From: Fuscovulum ytuae
GTDB taxonomy: Bacteria; Pseudomonadota; Alphaproteobacteria; Rhodobacterales; Rhodobacteraceae
Assembly (NCBI RefSeq): GCF_029953595.1
Contig: NZ_CP124535.1
Location: forward strand, 2,525,001 to 2,589,000
DNA: 64,000 nucleotides
Direction: 5' to 3'
Below the pieces are notes generated by a model. The model saw only the letters and a list, made by a program, of their open reading frames with translations. It searched no databases and had not been told where the DNA came from. Shown piece by piece: positions 1,992 to 44,578 of the stretch (positions are counted from its first letter, which is position 1; every line of letters begins with the position of its first letter). A program made the translations under genes and the position numbers.

Positions 1992-4604
1992 TCAGTGAAC
2001 GACTGCCTGAGACGGCCTTTCGCGGTTCGATGCGATGACCCGATCCCCAACGATCAGGCCTTCGGCACCCGCCGTCACGTGAACGGTACACCCATCAAGG
2101 ATATCGCCAGCAAGCAGCATCTCGGCCAGCGGGTCCTGCAACTGACGCTGGATCACCCGTTTAAGGGGGCGCGCACCATAGACGGGATCATAGCCTTCCT
2201 CGGCCAGCCATGCCTTGGCATCAGCGGCAAGGTCGAGCGTGATCTTGCGCTGTGCAAGACGCTTTTCCAGACGCCGAAGCTGAATTTCGACGATGCCGGT
2301 CATATCGGCGCGACCAAGGCGGTCAAAGATGATCGTCTCATCCAGACGGTTCAGGAATTCGGGGCGGAAATGAGCACGCACCGCTTCCATCACCTCACGC
2401 TTGGCCATCGCCGCATCCGACCCGTCGGGCAAGAGTGACAGCGCCTGCGACCCAAGGTTCGAGGTCAGAACGATGATCGTCTGCTTGAAATCCACCGTGC
2501 GGCCCTGACCATCGGTCAGGATGCCATCGTCCAGCACCTGAAGAAGAACGTTGAACACGTCGGGATGGGCCTTTTCCACCTCGTCAAACAGGACAACCTG
2601 ATAGGGCTTGCGGCGAACTGCCTCGGTCAACACGCCGCCTTCATCATAGCCGACATAGCCGGGGGGCGCGCCGATCAGGCGGGCCACGGCGTGTTTCTCC
2701 ATGAATTCGGACATGTCGATGCGCACCATCGCGGTTTCATCGTCAAAAAGGTATTCGGCCAGCGCCTTGGTCAATTCCGTCTTGCCCACCCCGGTGGGGC
2801 CGAGGAAGAGGAACGACCCCAGCGGGCGACCTTCGTCATTCAGGCCCGCGCGGGCGCGGCGGACGGCTTTCGACACCGCTTCCACTGCCTGAAGCTGTCC
2901 AATGACACGGCGGCCAAGCTCTTCCTCCATCCTTAGGAGTTTTTCCTTTTCGCCTTCCAGCATCTTGCTGGTGGGGATGCCGGTCCAGCGTTCGACAACC
3001 TCGGCGATCTGTTCGGGGCGCACGGCTTCACTGACCAAGGCCTCACCTTCGCGGGCTTCGGCTTCTGCCAGCGATTTTTCCAGCCCCGGAATGCGCCCGT
3101 ATTGGAGTTCGCCTGCCTTGGCGAAATCACCTTCGCGCTTGGCCTGCTCCAGTTCGGCACGGGCGCGGTCGAGTTGTTCCTTCAACTCACGCGCCTGTTC
3201 AAGGTTGTCACGTTCCGCCTGCCATTTGGCGGTCATCGCGGCGGATTGCTGTTGCAGATCCGAAAGCTCCTTCTCCAGCTTTTCCAGACGGTCGCGCGAG
3301 GCGGCGTCGTCTTCCTTTTTCAGCGCCTCGGATTCGATCTGGAATTGCAGGATCTGACGGTCAAGGGCGTCAAGCTCTTCGGGCTTGCTGTCCACTTCCA
3401 TCCGCAGGCGCGAAGCGGCCTCATCCACAAGGTCGATCGCCTTGTCGGGAAGGAAGCGGTCGGTGATGTAGCGATGCGACAGGGTCGCCGCCGCCACAAG
3501 CGCCGAGTCGCTGATGCGGACACCGTGATGAAGTTCGTATTTCTCCTTGATCCCCCGCAGGATAGAGATCGTGTCTTCCACCGTGGGTTCGTTCACCATC
3601 ACGGGCTGGAAACGGCGGGCAAGGGCTGCGTCCTTTTCCACATATTTGCGGTATTCATCCAGCGTAGTCGCGCCGACGCAATGCAATTCGCCCCGGGCAA
3701 GAGCGGGTTTGATCAGGTTCGCGGCATCCATCGCGCCGTCGGATTTGCCCGCGCCCACGAGGGTGTGCATTTCGTCGATGAAAAGGATGATCTCACCATT
3801 GGCAGAGGTCACCTCGTTCAGGATGGCTTTCAGCCGCTCCTCAAACTCGCCACGATACTTGGCCCCTGCGATAAGGGCGCCCATGTCCAGTGCCATCAGT
3901 TTCTTGTTGCGCAGGGATTCGGGCACGTCGCCGTTCACGATGCGCAGGGCAAGGCCTTCGGCGATGGCGGTCTTGCCAACGCCAGGTTCACCGATGAGGA
4001 CGGGGTTGTTCTTGGTGCGGCGCGACAGAACCTGCATGGCGCGGCGAATCTCTTCATCCCGGCCGATGATCGGGTCGATCTTGCCTTGTTCTGCCGCCTC
4101 GGTCAGGTCGCGGGCATACTTCTTCAACGCGTCATAGCCTTCTTCGGCGGATGCCGTGTCGGCGGTGCGACCCTTGCGGATGTCGTTGATCGCAGCGTTG
4201 AGTTTCTGTGCCGTGACTGCCCCGGCATCCAGTGCCTGCTTGGCGCCGCCGGGAACCATGGCCAGCGCCATAAGGATGCGTTCGACGGGAACAAAGCTGT
4301 CACCCGCTTTCTTGGCCAGTTTCTCAGCCTCATCCAGAACCTTCACAAGGCCCGGATCGGTGAAGGGCTGCGCATCGCCCGAAACCTTTGGCAGCTTGGA
4401 CAGCGCCAGATTGACGGCTTCGGCCACGCGGGCGGGTTCCCCCCCGGCGCGGCGAATGAGGTTGGACGCCAACCCCTGATCGTCATCCATGATCGCCTTT
4501 AGAAGATGTTCGGGCGCAAGCCGCTGGTGGCTTTCCCGCATCGCAATCGTCTGCGCGGCCTGAAGGAACCCGCGCGAGCGTTCCGTGAACTTTTCAAGGT
4601 TCAT
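1992..4604 (-). CDS. clpB: ClpB, protein disaggregase
   Basis: ClpB is the hexameric AAA+ disaggregase that works with DnaK to rescue heat-aggregated proteins in the cytosol. The 870-residue product has the Clp N-domain (starts [17 protein letters not shown]), the first ATPase module with Walker A GEPGVGKT, the coiled-coil middle domain (rich in E, K, Q around residues 410-525), and the second module with GPTGVGKT plus the C-terminal domain. The ATG at 4604 is chosen over one two codons upstream because AAGGAG is 8 bases from it. A sigma-32-like promoter lies upstream. Confidence 0.97.
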
Positions 4605-13052: not shown

Positions 13053-13110
13053 CGTCGCGCCCAAGGCATTGAGAACGCTGGCTTAATCGGGGCTTTCGGG
13101 CGAAAACGGT

Positions 13111-13158
13111 TGTGCCCTGTTTTGTGCCGCCTTTTGTGCAGCATTCTGTGGGCACGCA
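13111..13158. repeat. 12-bp iteron array, copy 1
   Basis: Four units start exactly 12 bases apart at 13111, 13123, 13135 and 13147: TGTGCCCTGTTT, TGTGCCGCCTTT, TGTGCAGCATTC and TGTGGGCACGCA. The first 33 bases occur unchanged at 39811. The array lies in the gap between the rpmJ terminator and the PaiB-like gene, with a CGTTAACCTTAACG inverted repeat 18 bases further on. It could be an operator; no binding protein is known to me. Confidence 0.75.
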
Positions 13159-13175
13159 GCGCACGCTGGGGTGCG

Positions 13176-13189
13176 CGTTAACCTTAACG
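13176..13189. promoter_or_regulatory. Inverted repeat CGTTAACCTTAACG upstream of the PaiB-like gene
   Basis: Fourteen-base inverted repeat (six-base arms, two-base centre) ending 26 bases before the ATG at 13216. The reverse complement is identical to the motif repeated three times perfectly in the thiB-aroC gap, so both places may bind the same protein. Confidence 0.5.
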
Positions 13190-13215: not shown

Positions 13216-13821
13216 ATGCATCCGAATCCCGCCTTTCGGGGCCAGCCTGAAGAGGAGAATCTGCGCTTTGCCACGGCGAAGGGCTTTGGGATGCTTTGCG
13301 TGAATGGCGCGGCGGGGCCACTCGCCGCGCATGTGCCTTTCGTGATGGCAGGGCCGCATGTGGTGGAGGTGCATCTGGCGCGGTCCAATGCGATGGCGCG
13401 GACAGGGTTGCCTGCGCCTGCGCTTTTGGCTGTACAGGGGCCGGATGCGTATATCTCGCCCGACTGGTATGGCGTGCCGGATCAGGTGCCGACATGGAAT
13501 TATGTGGCGGTGCATCTGCGCGGCGTGCTGCATCCGATGGAGGCAGAGGAACTTGAACCGCAGGTGGACGCGCTTTCGGCCATGTTCGAGGGGCGGATCG
13601 CGGGCAAGCGGCCATGGACCAAGGAGAAGATGGGCGAGGGGGTGATGGCCCGGATGATGCGGGGTATCCTGCCCTTTCGCCTTGAGGTCACCGAGATCGA
13701 CGGGACGTGGAAGTTGAACCAGAACAAGAGCCCGGAGGCGCGGGCGAGGGTGATCGCGGCGCTGGAGGCGCAGGGCGGGATGGCGGCGCAGATCGCGGCC
13801 CTGATGCAGGCGCTGGACTGA
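13216..13821 (+). CDS. FMN-binding PaiB-like protein
   Basis: A 201-residue member of the PaiB family (FMN-binding split-barrel fold), known in Bacillus as a repressor of sporulation and protease genes and elsewhere annotated as FMN-binding negative transcriptional regulator. Seen: NPAFRGQPEEENLRFATAKGFG at the start (split barrel), the LARSNAM loop, AYISPDWYG and the WNYVAVHLRG strand, then a C-terminal region ending in the NQNKSPEARARVIAALE helix. GGAGG lies eight bases before the ATG at 13216. No DNA-binding domain is visible; function in this organism is unknown. Confidence 0.85.
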   Translation: MHPNPAFRGQPEEENLRFATAKGFGMLCVNGAAGPLAAHVPFVMAGPHVVEVHLARSNAMARTGLPAPALLAVQGPDAYISPDWYGVPDQVPTWNYVAVHLRGVLHPMEAEELEPQVDALSAMFEGRIAGKRPWTKEKMGEGVMARMMRGILPFRLEVTEIDGTWKLNQNKSPEARARVIAALEAQGGMAAQIAALMQALD

Positions 13822-21857: not shown

Positions 21858-21951
21858 CGTTAAGGTTAACGGGGCGGGGTCGGGAGTGATCGGCAGGCGT
21901 TAAGGTTAACGGGCAGTCATTAGGGTTAATGCTGGGGCGTTAAGGTTAACG
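21858..21951. promoter_or_regulatory. Four CGTTAAGGTTAACG inverted repeats on a 20-bp lattice
   Basis: Perfect copies start at 21858, 21898 and 21938; a degenerate one, CATTAGGGTTAATG, starts at 21918. Distances are 40, 20 and 20 bases, two helical turns each step, so bound proteins would lie on one face of the DNA. The lattice ends 24 bases before an 8-bp minisatellite and 246 bases before aroC. It may be a regulator array; the binding protein is unknown. Confidence 0.7.
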
Positions 21952-21974: not shown

Positions 21975-22068
21975 CTGGGAGGCTGGGAGGCTGGGAGGCT
22001 GGGAGGCTGGGAGGCTGGGAGGCTGGGAGGCTGGGAGGCTGGGAGGCTGGGAGGCTGGGAGGCTGGGA
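21975..22068. repeat. 8-bp minisatellite, 11 perfect copies of CTGGGAGG
   Basis: Eleven uninterrupted CTGGGAGG units fill 21975-22062, followed by a twelfth partial unit CTGGGA. It lies in the long leader of aroC. Because 8 is not a multiple of 3 and no stop codon arises, it keeps reading frames open and creates a spurious upstream extension of aroC. Copy number is likely to vary between strains. The remaining 128 bases to aroC show nothing recognisable. Confidence 0.95.
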
Positions 22069-38993: not shown

Positions 38994-39743
38994 TCATTCC
39001 TGAAAACAGGCGGCGCGGCCGTCGGCGGCGATGGTTTCGGCGCCGGAGAGGATGGCGCGGGTTCTTTGGCGGACGAAGTTGGAGGGGTTGGAGGCGCTGC
39101 GGTTTTTCGGATCGGGGAGGACGGCGGCGAGGCGGGCGGCTTGGGTGGGTGTGAGATCACGCGCATCGACGCCGAAATGGTGCTGCGCGGCGGCCTGCAC
39201 GCCGAAGACGCCTTCGTCAAATTCGGCGACGTTCAGGTAAACTTCAAGGATGCGCCGCTTGGACCAGAGGGTTTCCACGACCGGGGTCAGCGCGGCCTCG
39301 GCGGCCTTGCGTGCCCAGGACCGCCCATGCCAGAGGAAGACGTTCTTGACCGTCTGCTGGCTGATGGTCGAGGCCCCGCGGTTGGAGCCTTCGGCCACCG
39401 CCTCGCGGATGGCGGCCATGTCGAAACCCCAATGAAGACAATAGTTTGCGTCCTCGGCGGCCACTGCGGCGCGGGCCATGACGGGGGCAATATCCTCCAT
39501 CGGGACCCAGTCCTTTTCGATCCCGCCAAGGCGGAAGCTTTCGCCCAGTTGGTAGAAATTGATGGGGGGCGGGAGGAAGGAAAAGAGGAGGATGAGGAGG
39601 AGGTAAAGCCCCGCGATGCCGCCTGCGATGCGGCCCGCCCAGCGCAGGACACGGCGGCGCAGGGGCTGCGCGACGGGGGTCGGCGCGGCCTTGGCGGCGG
39701 TCTTTTTCGGCTTGGCCTTGGGCTTTTCGGGACTGTCGGTCAT
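38994..39743 (-). CDS. mtgA: Monofunctional biosynthetic peptidoglycan transglycosylase
   Basis: A 249-residue GT51 enzyme polymerising lipid II into glycan strands. A basic Lys/Ala/Pro-rich cytoplasmic head (residues 5-30), one membrane helix (about 45-62), then the GT51 motifs: AAVAAEDANYCLHWGFD (catalytic Glu), GASTISQQTVKNVFLW, KRRILEVYLNVAEF (second Glu region) and LPDPKNRSASNPS. The ATG at 39743 fits; the frame upstream is open without good start. An iteron array (39811) lies about 70 bases upstream. Confidence 0.94.
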   Translation of the reverse strand: MTDSPEKPKAKPKKTAAKAAPTPVAQPLRRRVLRWAGRIAGGIAGLYLLLILLFSFLPPPINFYQLGESFRLGGIEKDWVPMEDIAPVMARAAVAAEDANYCLHWGFDMAAIREAVAEGSNRGASTISQQTVKNVFLWHGRSWARKAAEAALTPVVETLWSKRRILEVYLNVAEFDEGVFGVQAAAQHHFGVDARDLTPTQAARLAAVLPDPKNRSASNPSNFVRQRTRAILSGAETIAADGRAACFQE

Positions 39744-39810: not shown

Positions 39811-39858
39811 TGTGCCCTGTTTTGTGCCGCCTTTTGTGCAGCAAACTGTGGGCACAGA
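39811..39858. repeat. 12-bp iteron array, copy 2
   Basis: Units start at 39811, 39823, 39835 and 39847: TGTGCCCTGTTT, TGTGCCGCCTTT, TGTGCAGCAAAC, TGTGGGCACAGA. First 33 bases equal those at 13111. A half CGTTAAGG lies at 39880, at nearly the same distance as the full inverted repeat of copy 1. The array stands between mtgA and the gltB end; the rest of this 296-base gap, apart from the gltB terminator, holds no gene I can support. Confidence 0.75.
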
Positions 39859-40007
39859 GCGCGCGGTGGATGAAGGGGGCGTTAAGGCGACGGTTTGGGT
39901 CTAAGTGAGTTGGGTAGGATCGGCAGATGGATGCAGAGAGCAAAGCCGCACCCAAGGGCGACGGGGTTTCGATCCTGCATATCCCGCGCTGCGGAACGGG
40001 TGAAAGA

Positions 40008-40039: not shown

Positions 40040-43000
40040 TCACTCTGCCGGAACCTTTGCCGCCTCGTCCGAGAGGGGGTGCGCCAGATGGGGGAGCATC
40101 TCTTTCGGGCAGACTTGCAGGAAGTTGCGCTTCTCAGCCTCCCAGTTCGCAAGGATGCGTTCGGCGATGCGCGAGCCTGTCTCGGCGTGGTGGCGTTCGA
40201 TCAGGCCCTTCACCTGTGCCTCCCAATGGGGATGGCCGATGCCGCAGGTGAGGATCGACTCGAGGTTCATGAAATCCTCGGCCACGCCATCGGGATCGTA
40301 GACATAGGCCATGCCGCCCGTCATGCCCGCGCCGAAGTTCGCGCCGATCCGGCCAAGGATCACCGCGACGCCGCCCGTCATGTATTCGCAGCCGTTCGAG
40401 CCACAGCCTTCGACCACCACCTTGGCGCCGGAGTTCCGCACCGCAAAACGCTCGCCCGCGCGGCCCGATGCGAAGAGGAAGCCATCGGTCGCCCCATAAA
40501 GGACTGTGTTGCCGATGATGGTGTTCTCTTCCGCCTTGAGGGGGGAGGACATCATCGGGCGCACGGTGATCGTGCCGCCCGACAGGCCCTTGCCGACATA
40601 GTCGTTGGCATCCCCCTGCACCTCGATCTTCAAACCGCGCACGGAGAAGGCACCGAGCGACTGGCCGCAAGAACCGGTGAGTTTCACCGTCAGGTGATCC
40701 GGTTGCAGGCTGTTTCGCATGCCGAACTTCTTGACGATATGCGACGAGGCGCGCGTGCCGATGGTGCGGAGCGTGTTCCGCACGGCATAGGACAGTTGCA
40801 TCTTTTCGCCGTCTTCGAAGAAGCGGTGGCCGTCCTTGATAATCTCGGCATCGAGCGTATCGGGCACGGCATTGCGCGGCTTGGACCGATCATAGGTGAT
40901 CTTCTGCGCCCCATCGACGGTGATGAGAAGGGGGTTGAGATCAAGATCATCGAGCGCTGCGTGGCCCCGGCTGACCTGCGTCAGAAGATCGGCGCGACCG
41001 ATGATTTCATCCAAAGACCGCGCGCCGATGGAAGCGAGGATTTCCCGCACTTCCTGCGCATAGAAGGTGATGAGGTTGACCACCTTATCCGCGCTGCCTG
41101 TGAATTTCTGGCGCAGCGCTTCGTTCTGCGTGCAGACGCCCACGGGGCAGGTGTTGGATTGGCACTGGCGCACCATGATGCAGCCCATGGCGATCAGGGC
41201 GGCGGTGCCGATGCCGTATTCTTCGGCCCCCATCATGGCGGCCATCACCACGTCGCGCCCGGTGCGGAGGCCGCCATCGGTGCGCAGCGTGACCCGTTCG
41301 CGCAGGTTGTTCATGGCGAGGACCTGATGCGCCTCGGTCAGGCCCATTTCCCACGGCAGGCCCGCATATTTGATGGAGGTCGCGGGGGAGGCCCCGGTGC
41401 CGCCATTGTGGCCGGAGATCAGGATGACATCGGCCTTGGCCTTGGCCACGCCTGCCGCGATGGTGCCGACGCCAGAGGCCGAGACGAGTTTCACCGTGAC
41501 CTTGGCGCGCGGGTTGATCTGTTTGAGGTCATAGATCAGCTGGGCGAGGTCTTCGATGGAATAAATGTCGTGATGCGGCGGCGGCGAGATCAGCGTCACG
41601 CCGGGGGTGGAATGGCGCAGCCGCGCGATGAGGGCGGTGACCTTCATCCCCGGAAGCTGCCCGCCTTCGCCGGGCTTGGCGCCTTGGGCGACCTTGATTT
41701 CAAGTTCTTCGCAGGCGTTCAGGTATTCGGCGGTGACACCGAAGCGGCCTGAGGCGACCTGCTTGATCTTGGCGGATGGGTTGTCGCCATTGGGTTCGGG
41801 GTGGAAATGCGCCGGGTCTTCGCCGCCTTCGCCGCTGTCGGATTTCGCGCCGATGCGGTTCATGGCGACGTTGAGGGTTTTGTGCGCCTCGGGCGACAGG
41901 GCACCCAGCGACATGCCGGGGGTGACGAAGCGCTTGCGGATCGAGGTGATGGATTCCACTTCCTCGATCGGGACGGGTTTGCCCAGCGGTTTGATATCCA
42001 GAAGGTCGCGGATATGGATGGGCGGGTTGGCGCGCATCGCGGCGGAGTACTGCTTCCAGATGTCATAGCTGGCGCGGTCGCAGGCGGATTGCAGCATGTG
42101 CATGGTCTGCGCCTCCCATGCGTGCTTTTCGCCAGAGCGGCGGGCCTTGTAGAAGCCGCCGATGGGCAGGACATCGGTGCCGCCGAGCCAGCCTTTGGCG
42201 TGGACCTCTTCCAGTTTCTGTTCGATGCCAGTGAGGCCGATGCCGGAGATGCGGGACTGCATGCCGGGGAAGTATTCGGCCACCATCGCGCGGGAGAGGC
42301 CGACGGCTTCGAAGTTGAGGCCGCCGCGGTAGGAGGAGATGACCGAGATGCCCATCTTGGACATGATCTTGAGAAGGCCCGCGTCGATGGCGTCGCGGTA
42401 GCGGCGCATGGCATCGGTGAGGGTGCCGTCAAGAAGCCCGCGCGAGATGCGGTCGGCGATGGAGTCTTGGGCGAGGTAGGCGTTCACCGTCGTCGCGCCG
42501 CAGCCGATGAGGACGGCGAAGTAATGCGGGTCGATGCATTCGGCGGAACGGACATTGATGGAGCAGAAGGTCCGCAGGCCCTTGCGCGTCAGCCATGAAT
42601 GCACGGCAGAGGTGGCAAGGATCATGGGCATGGGCACGCGGTCGGGGCCCTGATGCTGATCCGTCAGCACCAGATGGCCCGCGCCGGAGCGGACGGCATC
42701 TTCGGCCTCGGCCCTGATGCGTTCCAGCCCTTGGCGCAGATCGTCGAGTTCGGGCGAGACGGGGAAGGTGCAGTCGATGAAGGCGACCTGATCACCGAAT
42801 TGCCGCACCATCACGTCGAATTCGGCATTGGCGATGAAGGGGCTTTCCAGAACGAGGATTTCGGTCTGGCTGCTGTTTTCATCCAGCACGTTGCGGAGGT
42901 TGCCGAAGCGGGTTTTCAGCGACATCACGCGGCCTTCGCGCAGGCTGTCGATCGGCGGGTTGGTGACCTGGCTGAAGTTCTGGCGGAAGAAATGCGACAG

Positions 43001-44578
43001 TGGGCGGTAGACCTTGGACAGGACTGCGGCGGGCGTGTCGTCGCCCATGGAGGCGACCATTTCCTTGCCGTCTTCGGCCATGGGGGCGAGGATTTGTTCC
43101 AATTCCTCGACCGTGTAGCCAGCGGCGATCTGGCGGCGGCGAAGGTCGGCGCCGGAGAAGAGGGCGGCTTCCGGCACGTCGCGCAGCAGGCTGTTCAGAT
43201 CGACGATCTTTTCGATCCATTCGCCATAGGGCTGGCTGGCGGCCAGTTTGTCCTTCATTTCGGCGTCGTGGTAGAGTTTGCCTTCCGCCATATCCACCGC
43301 GATCATCTGGCCGGGGCCAAGCGCGCCTTTTTCGCGCACGGTGGTTTCATCGACGGGGACCATGCCCGCCTCGGACCCGGCGATGAGCATGCCGTCGCCG
43401 GTGATGACATAGCGCATCGGGCGCAGGCCGTTGCGATCCAGCCCGCCGCAGACCCAGCGGCCATCGGTCATGGCAAGGGCGGCGGGGCCGTCCCACGGTT
43501 CCATGACGGAGTTGCAATAGGCATACATATCCGCCCATGCCTGCGGCATGTCGGTGGTGGTTTTGGACCAGGCTTCCGGCACCAGCATCGTCTTGGCCAT
43601 GGGGGCCGAGCGGCCCGATCTGACCAGCACTTCGAACACAGCATCCAAGGCGCCGGAGTCCGACGTGCCCGACGGGATGATCGGCTTGATGTCTTCGGCG
43701 GCATCGCCGAAGTTGTTGGACGCCATGCGAATTTCGTGGCTGCGCATCCAGTTGACGTTGCCCTTCAGCGTGTTGATTTCGCCGTTATGGGCAAGCATGC
43801 GGAAGGGTTGGGCGAGCCACCATTGCGGGAAGGTGTTGGTCGAATAGCGCTGATGGTAGATCGCGAAGGAGGATTCGAAACGGTCATCCATCAGATCGGG
43901 GTAGAAGACGGCGACCTGTTCGGCCAGCATCATCCCCTTGTAGATGATCGATTGGCAGGAGAGGGAGCAGAGGTAAAGCCCCTGAATCTGCGCCGCGACG
44001 GCGGCTTTTTCGATGCGGCGACGGATGATGTAAAGTTCGCGTTCGAACTGTTCCCGATCGATGTCCTTTTCGCAGCGGATCAGGATCTGTTCGATTTCCG
44101 GGCGGGTGGCATTGGCCTTTTCGCCCAGAACTTCGGTGTTCACCGGGACGTGACGCCAGCCATAGATGTAATGGCCCATGCGCAGGACTTCGGTTTCCAC
44201 GATGGTCCGGCAGCGTTCCTGCGCGCCGAAATCGGTGCGGGGCAGGAAGACCTGACCCACGGCGACGAGCTTGTTCAGATCGGGTTCATGGCCCGTGCGG
44301 CGGATCACGTCATAGAAGAACCGCACCGGGATTTGCACATGGATGCCCGCGCCATCACCCGTCTTGCCATCGGCATCGACCGCGCCCCGGTGCCAGACGG
44401 CCTTGAGCGCGTTGATCCCGTTTTCCACCACCTTGCGGGACGGTTTGCCAGAGATCGACACCACCAGCCCCACACCGCAGGAGGAATGTTCATCCTCGGT
44501 CTTGTAGAGGCTGTGTTCGTCCATCCACTGGCGCTTGGCTTCTTCGGCCTTCACCCAGGATTCGTCATAGATCGTCAT
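40040..44578 (-). CDS. gltB: Glutamate synthase (NADPH) large subunit
   Basis: GltB (1512 residues) takes ammonia from glutamine and makes glutamate from 2-oxoglutarate. N-terminal glutamine amidotransferase: the nucleophile Cys34 in HSSCGVGLV after a 33-residue propeptide. Then the central domain, the FMN-binding synthase domain (with LISGHNGGTGASPATSIKYAG and the 3Fe-4S cysteines in CIMVRQCQSNTCPVGVC), and the C-terminal GXGXG beta-helix (GSNGCEYMTGGVAVILG). AAGGAG precedes the ATG. Third gene of gltD-orf-gltB. Confidence 0.97.
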   Translation of the reverse strand: MTIYDESWVKAEEAKRQWMDEHSLYKTEDEHSSCGVGLVVSISGKPSRKVVENGINALKAVWHRGAVDADGKTGDGAGIHVQIPVRFFYDVIRRTGHEPDLNKLVAVGQVFLPRTDFGAQERCRTIVETEVLRMGHYIYGWRHVPVNTEVLGEKANATRPEIEQILIRCEKDIDREQFERELYIIRRRIEKAAVAAQIQGLYLCSLSCQSIIYKGMMLAEQVAVFYPDLMDDRFESSFAIYHQRYSTNTFPQWWLAQPFRMLAHNGEINTLKGNVNWMRSHEIRMASNNFGDAAEDIKPIIPSGTSDSGALDAVFEVLVRSGRSAPMAKTMLVPEAWSKTTTDMPQAWADMYAYCNSVMEPWDGPAALAMTDGRWVCGGLDRNGLRPMRYVITGDGMLIAGSEAGMVPVDETTVREKGALGPGQMIAVDMAEGKLYHDAEMKDKLAASQPYGEWIEKIVDLNSLLRDVPEAALFSGADLRRRQIAAGYTVEELEQILAPMAEDGKEMVASMGDDTPAAVLSKVYRPLSHFFRQNFSQVTNPPIDSLREGRVMSLKTRFGNLRNVLDENSSQTEILVLESPFIANAEFDVMVRQFGDQVAFIDCTFPVSPELDDLRQGLERIRAEAEDAVRSGAGHLVLTDQHQGPDRVPMPMILATSAVHSWLTRKGLRTFCSINVRSAECIDPHYFAVLIGCGATTVNAYLAQDSIADRISRGLLDGTLTDAMRRYRDAIDAGLLKIMSKMGISVISSYRGGLNFEAVGLSRAMVAEYFPGMQSRISGIGLTGIEQKLEEVHAKGWLGGTDVLPIGGFYKARRSGEKHAWEAQTMHMLQSACDRASYDIWKQYSAAMRANPPIHIRDLLDIKPLGKPVPIEEVESITSIRKRFVTPGMSLGALSPEAHKTLNVAMNRIGAKSDSGEGGEDPAHFHPEPNGDNPSAKIKQVASGRFGVTAEYLNACEELEIKVAQGAKPGEGGQLPGMKVTALIARLRHSTPGVTLISPPPHHDIYSIEDLAQLIYDLKQINPRAKVTVKLVSASGVGTIAAGVAKAKADVILISGHNGGTGASPATSIKYAGLPWEMGLTEAHQVLAMNNLRERVTLRTDGGLRTGRDVVMAAMMGAEEYGIGTAALIAMGCIMVRQCQSNTCPVGVCTQNEALRQKFTGSADKVVNLITFYAQEVREILASIGARSLDEIIGRADLLTQVSRGHAALDDLDLNPLLITVDGAQKITYDRSKPRNAVPDTLDAEIIKDGHRFFEDGEKMQLSYAVRNTLRTIGTRASSHIVKKFGMRNSLQPDHLTVKLTGSCGQSLGAFSVRGLKIEVQGDANDYVGKGLSGGTITVRPMMSSPLKAEENTIIGNTVLYGATDGFLFASGRAGERFAVRNSGAKVVVEGCGSNGCEYMTGGVAVILGRIGANFGAGMTGGMAYVYDPDGVAEDFMNLESILTCGIGHPHWEAQVKGLIERHHAETGSRIAERILANWEAEKRNFLQVCPKEMLPHLAHPLSDEAAKVPAE

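Follow-up and report, generated by a model that had tools for sequence, protein, structure and literature searches.

A replication-aligned family of intergenic 12-base-step arrays in Fuscovulum ytuae and related genomes, with possible polar DNA sites as a tentative reading

Within the 64,000-nucleotide stretch of Fuscovulum ytuae DNA analysed here, called the window (2525001-2589000 of C1 in the 4.19 Mb source genome, G000), nearly the same short repeat array stands at two places beside unrelated genes, which raises the question of what such arrays are and what they might do. Array A (13111..13155, + strand) and array B (39811..39855, + strand) were delimited from the sequence and by genome pattern search, and a search of the whole window returned these two copies only. 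In each, four 12-base units follow one another with starts exactly 12 bases apart (13111, 13123, 13135 and 13147 in array A; 39811, 39823, 39835 and 39847 in array B), the last unit being TGTGGGCAC in both. Their first 33 bases are identical, a two-base mismatch (TT/AA) follows, and then CTGTGGGCAC is found in both, so that step, identity and mismatch are as the original prediction had described them. Array A lies between rpmJ (ribosomal protein L36; 12873..12998, +, PF00444) on its left and the gene for a PaiB-like FMN-binding protein (FMN_bind_2; 13216..13821, +, PF04299) on its right, and array B between the gene for an mtgA-like transglycosylase (38994..39743, -, PF00912) on its left and a gltB-like gene (40040..44578, -), named from its translation alone, on its right. 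Both copies are noncoding and their neighbours unrelated, as had been claimed, and a longer coding duplication behind the 33-base identity was looked for and is not the case.

Several boxes accompany the arrays. Immediately to the left of array A is an AACGGT box (13105..13110, +), common in the family, and its left box, GAACGCTGGCTTAATC (13073..13088, +), can be made out here in eight of nine further aligned genomes and elsewhere in one subtype. The right box of array A, CACGCAGCGCACGCTG (13153..13168, +), is typical of the family's largest subtype, and that of array B is CACAGAGCGCGCGGTG (39853..39868, +). A following site had been reported 65-69 bases from the array start, and it is indeed there: CGTTAACC begins at +65 from the start of array A (13176), with a GTTAAGGTTAAC site at 13177..13188 (-), and a CGTTAAGG half site lies downstream of array B at +69 from its start (39880..39887, +). 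These TTAA sites (CGTTAAGG, GTTAAGGTTAAC) are a separate, dispersed companion motif, often found after the arrays, and not part of the minimal array element. GTTAAGGTTAAC occurs four times in the window, where 0.01 matches would be expected, and three of these lie at a distance from the arrays. At L223 the whole gap from stop codon to start codon is taken up by the array, leaving no TTAA-type site; the CGTTAAGG/TTAA site is therefore not essential to the element. Three exact copies of GTTAAGGTTAAC stand at 21859, 21899 and 21939 (21859-21950) on a 20-base step, a diverged copy separating the second from the third, and directly after this cluster an intergenic perfect tandem repeat of CTGGGAGG occupies 21975-22068 (11.8 copies).

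The array had been taken as a sequence duplicated at two loci, which is exact for the window but falls short for the genome. The genome-wide search at 12-base spacing that had been suggested, run with TGTGCC-N6-TGTGCC-N6-TGTGC (N5 to N7 allowed), gave 81 matches in G000 and 0 when the pattern was read backwards, so that the recurrence is beyond chance, and a sequence profile built from 40 copies, with up to 150 candidates scored in each genome and matches counted at E up to 0.1, found at least 101. Profile matches number at least 101 in G008 (Tabrizicola sp. TH137), at least 99 in G010, at least 117 in G012 and at least 70 in G005 (Rhodobacter amnigenus), with lower counts in G017 (36), G018 (26), G006 (25), G004 (R. 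ruber; 19), G001 (13) and G014 (R. kunshanensis; 3), all of these being open to undercounting because the profile misses some diverged dialects. By the profile search, carriers make up 11 of the 19 genomes of the genus, and the initial doubt whether any related genome has the array does not apply; of the non-carriers, G015 has one weak profile match and seven others have none. In the family's other genera, a loose pattern gave one to seven matches in 61 of 392 genomes, mostly singles or simple tandem repeats, and its reversed form scored in about 33 of the 392, which leaves a mild excess for the forward pattern. No second amplified family was seen in these 392 genomes with the loose pattern, which would miss diverged dialects. 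A published description of this array family was not found in the open-access papers searched.

The anatomy of the element was established on 80 elements from the window and 73 loci of 5.1 kb in G000, one chance row (L142, on the other strand) having been dropped from the 81 array rows listed and leading TGTGAAAA units trimmed. Units run head to tail, as direct and not inverted repeats, and number four in 75 of the 80 elements, five in three and three in two. The right-hand end, sorted by regular expression (n=80), takes the form CACGCAGCG in 48, CACGCGCGG in 15 and CATACAAATTT in 17. In addition, close tandem pairs of elements occur, about 115-160 bases apart.

The orientation of the elements follows local GC skew. 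For 78 elements of the 73 G000 loci, the strand agrees with local GC skew, calculated with the element removed, in 75, and in 71 of 72 where the skew exceeds 0.05; where genes oppose the skew, the element follows the skew in all 25 cases. The window itself has positive skew in eight of eight 8-kb steps, with arrays A and B both on the + strand. Agreement extends to seven of eight additional G000 copies, among them the two found on replicon C3, to 21 of 21 in G010 and to 19 of 20 in G008, where the exception (L225) is orthologous to L128, itself one of the three exceptions in G000. Additional loci drawn from ten genomes agree in 52 of 53 rows; these represent 46 distinct copies, of which 45 agree and two belong to G008, and the single miss is the weak match in G015, a non-carrier. 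One of the C3 copies (L340:2537-2602, from G000:C3:14400-19500) lies about 0.4 kb from a stretch resembling plasmid ParA/ParB-type genes.

When present replication arms are used instead, with the G000 origin placed by skew probably near 2.32 Mb, 63, 65 or 68 of 85 copies point from origin to terminus, depending on whether the terminus is set at 0.37, 0.28 or 0.85 Mb. Many of the arm-discordant copies sit in segments whose skew is reversed too. In G000:C1, at about 1.44-1.46, 1.71-1.76, 1.96-1.98, 2.83-2.91 and 3.06 Mb, skew is opposite to its own arm and the elements inside are reversed as well; these five regions are likely inversions within an arm. Given that the arm-discordant elements lie in reversed-skew segments, orientation seems to have been left uncorrected after inversions, and the polarity looks older than the inversions themselves. 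A strict polar function would predict correction after inversion, so that the present-arm result is the main evidence against a strict polar function.

The elements are also more evenly spaced than random placement would give. In an incomplete set of 85 known chromosomal positions, reduced to 80 by merging tandem pairs less than 500 bases apart, the coefficient of variation of the gaps is 0.65 against 0.99 for random placement (p 0.0002; 1 in 5000 simulations as low), the mean gap is 48.7 kb, and density is uniform along the origin-terminus axis (KS p 0.997). Moreover, positions are shared between species. Loci matching a G000 element locus by flank, with the element in the same orientation, account for 19 of 20 in G010 and 17 of 20 in G008, by both flanks in 34 of the 36 and by one flank in two, at 77-92% identity. 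The G010 loci were the first 20 of 28 matches to a pattern requiring TTT spacers, which biases spacer identity in that genome; the G008 loci came from two contigs, with several listed ones left out, and were picked before outcomes were known. Those unmatched among the 40 are L202, L223, L218 and L227, and the G000 ortholog array is shortened at L202 and diverged at L223. Diverged copies located by position retain the 12-base step. A different dispersed repeat, the double-hairpin AAATTCCTTCGAAGGAATTTGCAAAATTCTTCGAAGAATTTTG, is present at L202 (about 2945-3006), and a similar one upstream of paiB in several of L269-L290; it has short matches in G005, G008, G009, G010, G012 and G016 among the matches listed, and at the L202 place G005 lacks it and G000 has other hairpins instead.

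Sequence within the arrays behaves differently from position. Ortholog pairs were drawn from 18 of 19 G010 and 15 of 17 G008 matches, tandem or unclear pairs being left out, and the G000-G008 comparison is the fair one. For its 15 pairs, spacer 1 identity is 0.32 between orthologs and 0.32 between non-orthologs, whereas comparisons within one genome give 1.00 (G000) and 0.53 (G008); for spacer 2, the corresponding values are 0.50, 0.52, 0.76 and 0.63. The 14 bases after the array, by comparison, are 0.73 identical between orthologs against 0.37-0.38 otherwise, and the further 3' flank 0.59 against 0.30-0.31. Spacer 3 is nearly invariant (0.97 and 0.92), and core identity is 0.98-1.00 both inside a species and from one species to another, a figure partly built in since the loci were found via core patterns. 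The sequence changes in step across each genome while the sites stay in place. The first spacer is CTGTTT in 75 of 84 G000 copies (79 begin with CTG, and the other five are unrelated G-initial words) and in 21 of 23 G010 copies, the latter a biased sample; G008 has a mixture of GTATCC, GGATCC and others. The fourth unit carries GGC in 17 of 21 G008 copies and CAG in 11 of 16 G012 copies, and in the other clade of carriers TGTATGCACGC occurs often. At L223, TGTACCGCAAACTGTGCATAC is common to the G000 copy and its ortholog in G012, and this, together with the near all-or-none spacer 1 of G000, favours block copying over gradual change.

On a gltB tree of 18 genomes, the carriers fall into two groups with the non-carriers G009 and G016 nested among them, and the carrier label needs two changes, meaning either loss or two gains. 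Because elements stand at rpmJ and paiB in both carrier groups, loss is likelier than two gains; in G016, rpmJ still adjoins paiB with no array between. Since G009 and G016 are nested among carriers and lack arrays, any function would be dispensable. Copies have also been gained over time, as the array at locus B occurs in some relatives only: it is present beside mtgA in G010, G008 and G012, and absent by eye in G005 and six genomes of the other carrier clade. In G004, G006, G017 and G018, rpmJ and paiB lie apart and each has an element (L053, L054, L056 and L066 for rpmJ; L055, L067, L068 and L069 for paiB), and the adjacent pair shares one, so that a rearrangement junction coincides with the element.

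As to what the arrays are, their gene context bears first on regulation. All 80 elements are intergenic according to a home-made codon-usage gene caller, and among gaps of at least 60 bases they occupy 31 of 43 convergent, 34 of 127 tandem and 9 of 61 divergent ones, with an odds ratio of 8.7 for convergent against other gaps that applies to gaps within element-selected loci only. Put otherwise, convergent gaps are 31 of the 74 that bear an element against 12 of the 157 without one in the same loci, and divergent gaps are 9 of the 74. As a class, the elements avoid divergent promoters, and their strand is unrelated to the net gene strand (agreement in 39 of 78). Iteron-like arrays commonly go with cooperative DNA binding, and the original prediction had offered a multi-site operator or a mobile regulatory cassette. 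Multi-site operators of a global transcription factor would suit array A, which keeps its place 5' of paiB even where the other neighbour differs: in nine other genomes, the profile matches there in six, the array is diverged by eye in R. kunshanensis and R. ruber, and it is degenerate in BC.021. In L269-L339, which come mostly from other genera and include L270 (G016), inspection of the 175 bases preceding paiB showed no array. Given their intergenic placement with concentration in convergent gaps, however, the arrays are not mainly operators; for the family, this reading is rejected on gap type and orientation and must be rated very improbable. What stands of the earlier proposal is a dispersed multi-site cassette: an array of four fixed units has the look of one that binds protein, and copies have been gained. 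Convergent gaps are gene 3' ends, which might instead suggest an RNA-level element such as a terminator, a 3' UTR signal or a small RNA, but this is scarcely credible, as orientation is independent of gene strand, no Rfam match falls on the element in eight loci, and folding of six copies as single-stranded DNA, with DNA parameters, gave no structure in excess of shuffles (z 0.57, 0.32, 1.12, 0.89, -0.61 and -1.00).

In two further explanations, the array is a repeat. An old functionless repeat could have been homogenised by the host through ectopic RecA-type conversion, other arrangements being lost by deletions and inversions; the rearrangement junction between clades at rpmJ/paiB coincides with an element, and even spacing would follow from losing close direct repeats. 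This is nonetheless improbable, because orthologous sites retain the 12-base step and TGTGC-like cores even as their spacers change, and because same-arm direct repeats are the deletion-prone arrangement, which purging would not favour. A miniature mobile or self-spreading repeat, the main rival of the reading adopted below, is conceivable, if on the unlikely side. Single-strand entry at the fork on the lagging-strand template (the TGTG strand) would set its polarity, and annealing or gene conversion between copies would overwrite residents, giving dialects at stable positions. Polarity that follows skew even in reversed-skew segments is what a mark left at insertion would produce, and the same reading is favoured by the block-like character of spacer 1 in G000 and G010, which extends to replicon C3, by the loss of orthology in spacers 1 and 2 while flanks keep it, by the gain of copies at locus B, by the close tandem pairs and by the occurrence of reverse transcriptases in carriers only (three of the 19 genomes). 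Reversed-segment polarity and block-like dialects are in fact better explained by a self-homogenising repeat than by a polar binding array. On the other hand, no known enzyme to drive such a repeat was found in G000. No IS200/REP-type (Y1) transposase exceeds the Pfam cut-off in the 19 genomes, one weak match in G008 aside, and on this and the lack of structure in six copies a REP/IS200-type element is rejected. The reverse transcriptases are those of G010, G014 and G017; none was found in G000, G008, G012 or G005, and a retron or group II intron is rejected as driver given the absence from G000. An IS91-type transposase occurs in one of the 19 only, the non-carrier G013, in a search that gave no match in any of its 14 control genomes, and that element type is likewise rejected. 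Hairpins are lacking in the six copies folded, even spacing and fixed unit number are not predicted by mobility, and we know of no mechanism for homogenising a 48-base array at about 100 stable sites.

A polar protein-binding array is favoured because the unit number is fixed, the core and step are kept, spacing is even and positions are stable. That the arrays are polar DNA sites for a putative protein at work on the chromosome during its replication or segregation is therefore the reading adopted here, tentatively and at somewhat less than an even chance. Each array would be a double-stranded directional site on which four protomers of one sequence-specific protein might sit head to tail, one protomer per 12 bases on the TGTGC core, with the odd fourth unit (TGTNNNYAC, often then GCAGCG) marking the front end. 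With some 100 such sites spread evenly and pointing from origin to terminus, a replisome or segregation translocase would always meet the same face, and if the protein's preference drifted by species and the sites followed, dialects would arise. We infer that a protein reads the arrays, that it acts in replication or segregation and that the dialects track it. The more ambitious form of this reading is a chromosome-wide polarity system, in which about 100 evenly spaced multi-protomer arrays would tell a moving DNA machine the direction of the terminus in a species dialect rewritten at nearly all sites, on the chromosome and a second replicon, with the sites themselves fixed; as a whole, this is rather doubtful.

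Dispersed repeats and signals of several kinds invite comparison. The polar chromosome signals known to us are very short words, and KOPS are bound by the gamma domain of FtsK; REP elements sit in the 3' regions of genes, a placement that the arrays share. DNA uptake sequences, which have species dialects, resemble the arrays as a dispersed signal whose dialect changes genome-wide, but they come as thousands of short copies not strictly aligned with replication, whereas the arrays are about 100, some 48 bases long and replication-aligned. KOPS and AIMS are polar sequences guiding FtsK-type translocases (PMC2680272, PMC5993296). Their leading-strand orientation from origin to terminus is the point of comparison; the arrays agree with local skew in 75/78 but with the present arm in only 63-68/85. 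KOPS and AIMS are 8-base words, with AIMS enriched toward the terminus, and the arrays are about 48 bases long, in about 100 copies, intergenic and of uniform density along the origin-terminus axis. The STAR elements of staphylococci are likewise interspersed intergenic direct repeats, in the manner of the arrays (80/80 intergenic), but STAR loci are species-variable, expand and contract, and have locus-specific sequences (PMC3532100), in contrast to arrays at shared loci with four units in 75/80 and a genome-wide spacer 1 in 75/84. REP/REPIN sequences with RAYT transposases also form high-copy intergenic repeats in persistent species-specific families (PMC3116915, PMC8049555, PMC6006769), but are palindromic; the arrays are direct repeats, six folded copies gave no hairpin, and in 19 genomes no Y1 transposase exceeds the cut-off. 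In Beggiatoaceae, each genome has more than 100 intergenic sets of the short direct repeat TAACTGA (PMC4679880); those units are 7 bases long and mostly placed directly before start codons, whereas the units of the arrays measure 12 bases and are aligned with replication irrespective of gene strand.

A long, fixed and evenly spaced polar array, if truly one, would offer a direct handle on how bacteria mark the direction of their DNA. With dialects that span the genome at conserved positions, a further question becomes testable, namely, whether about 100 dispersed sites are rewritten together by copying between sites or by a changing protein. If the arrays are a selfish repeat instead, insertion polarity would have recorded the direction of replication, and the copies would overwrite each other in place.
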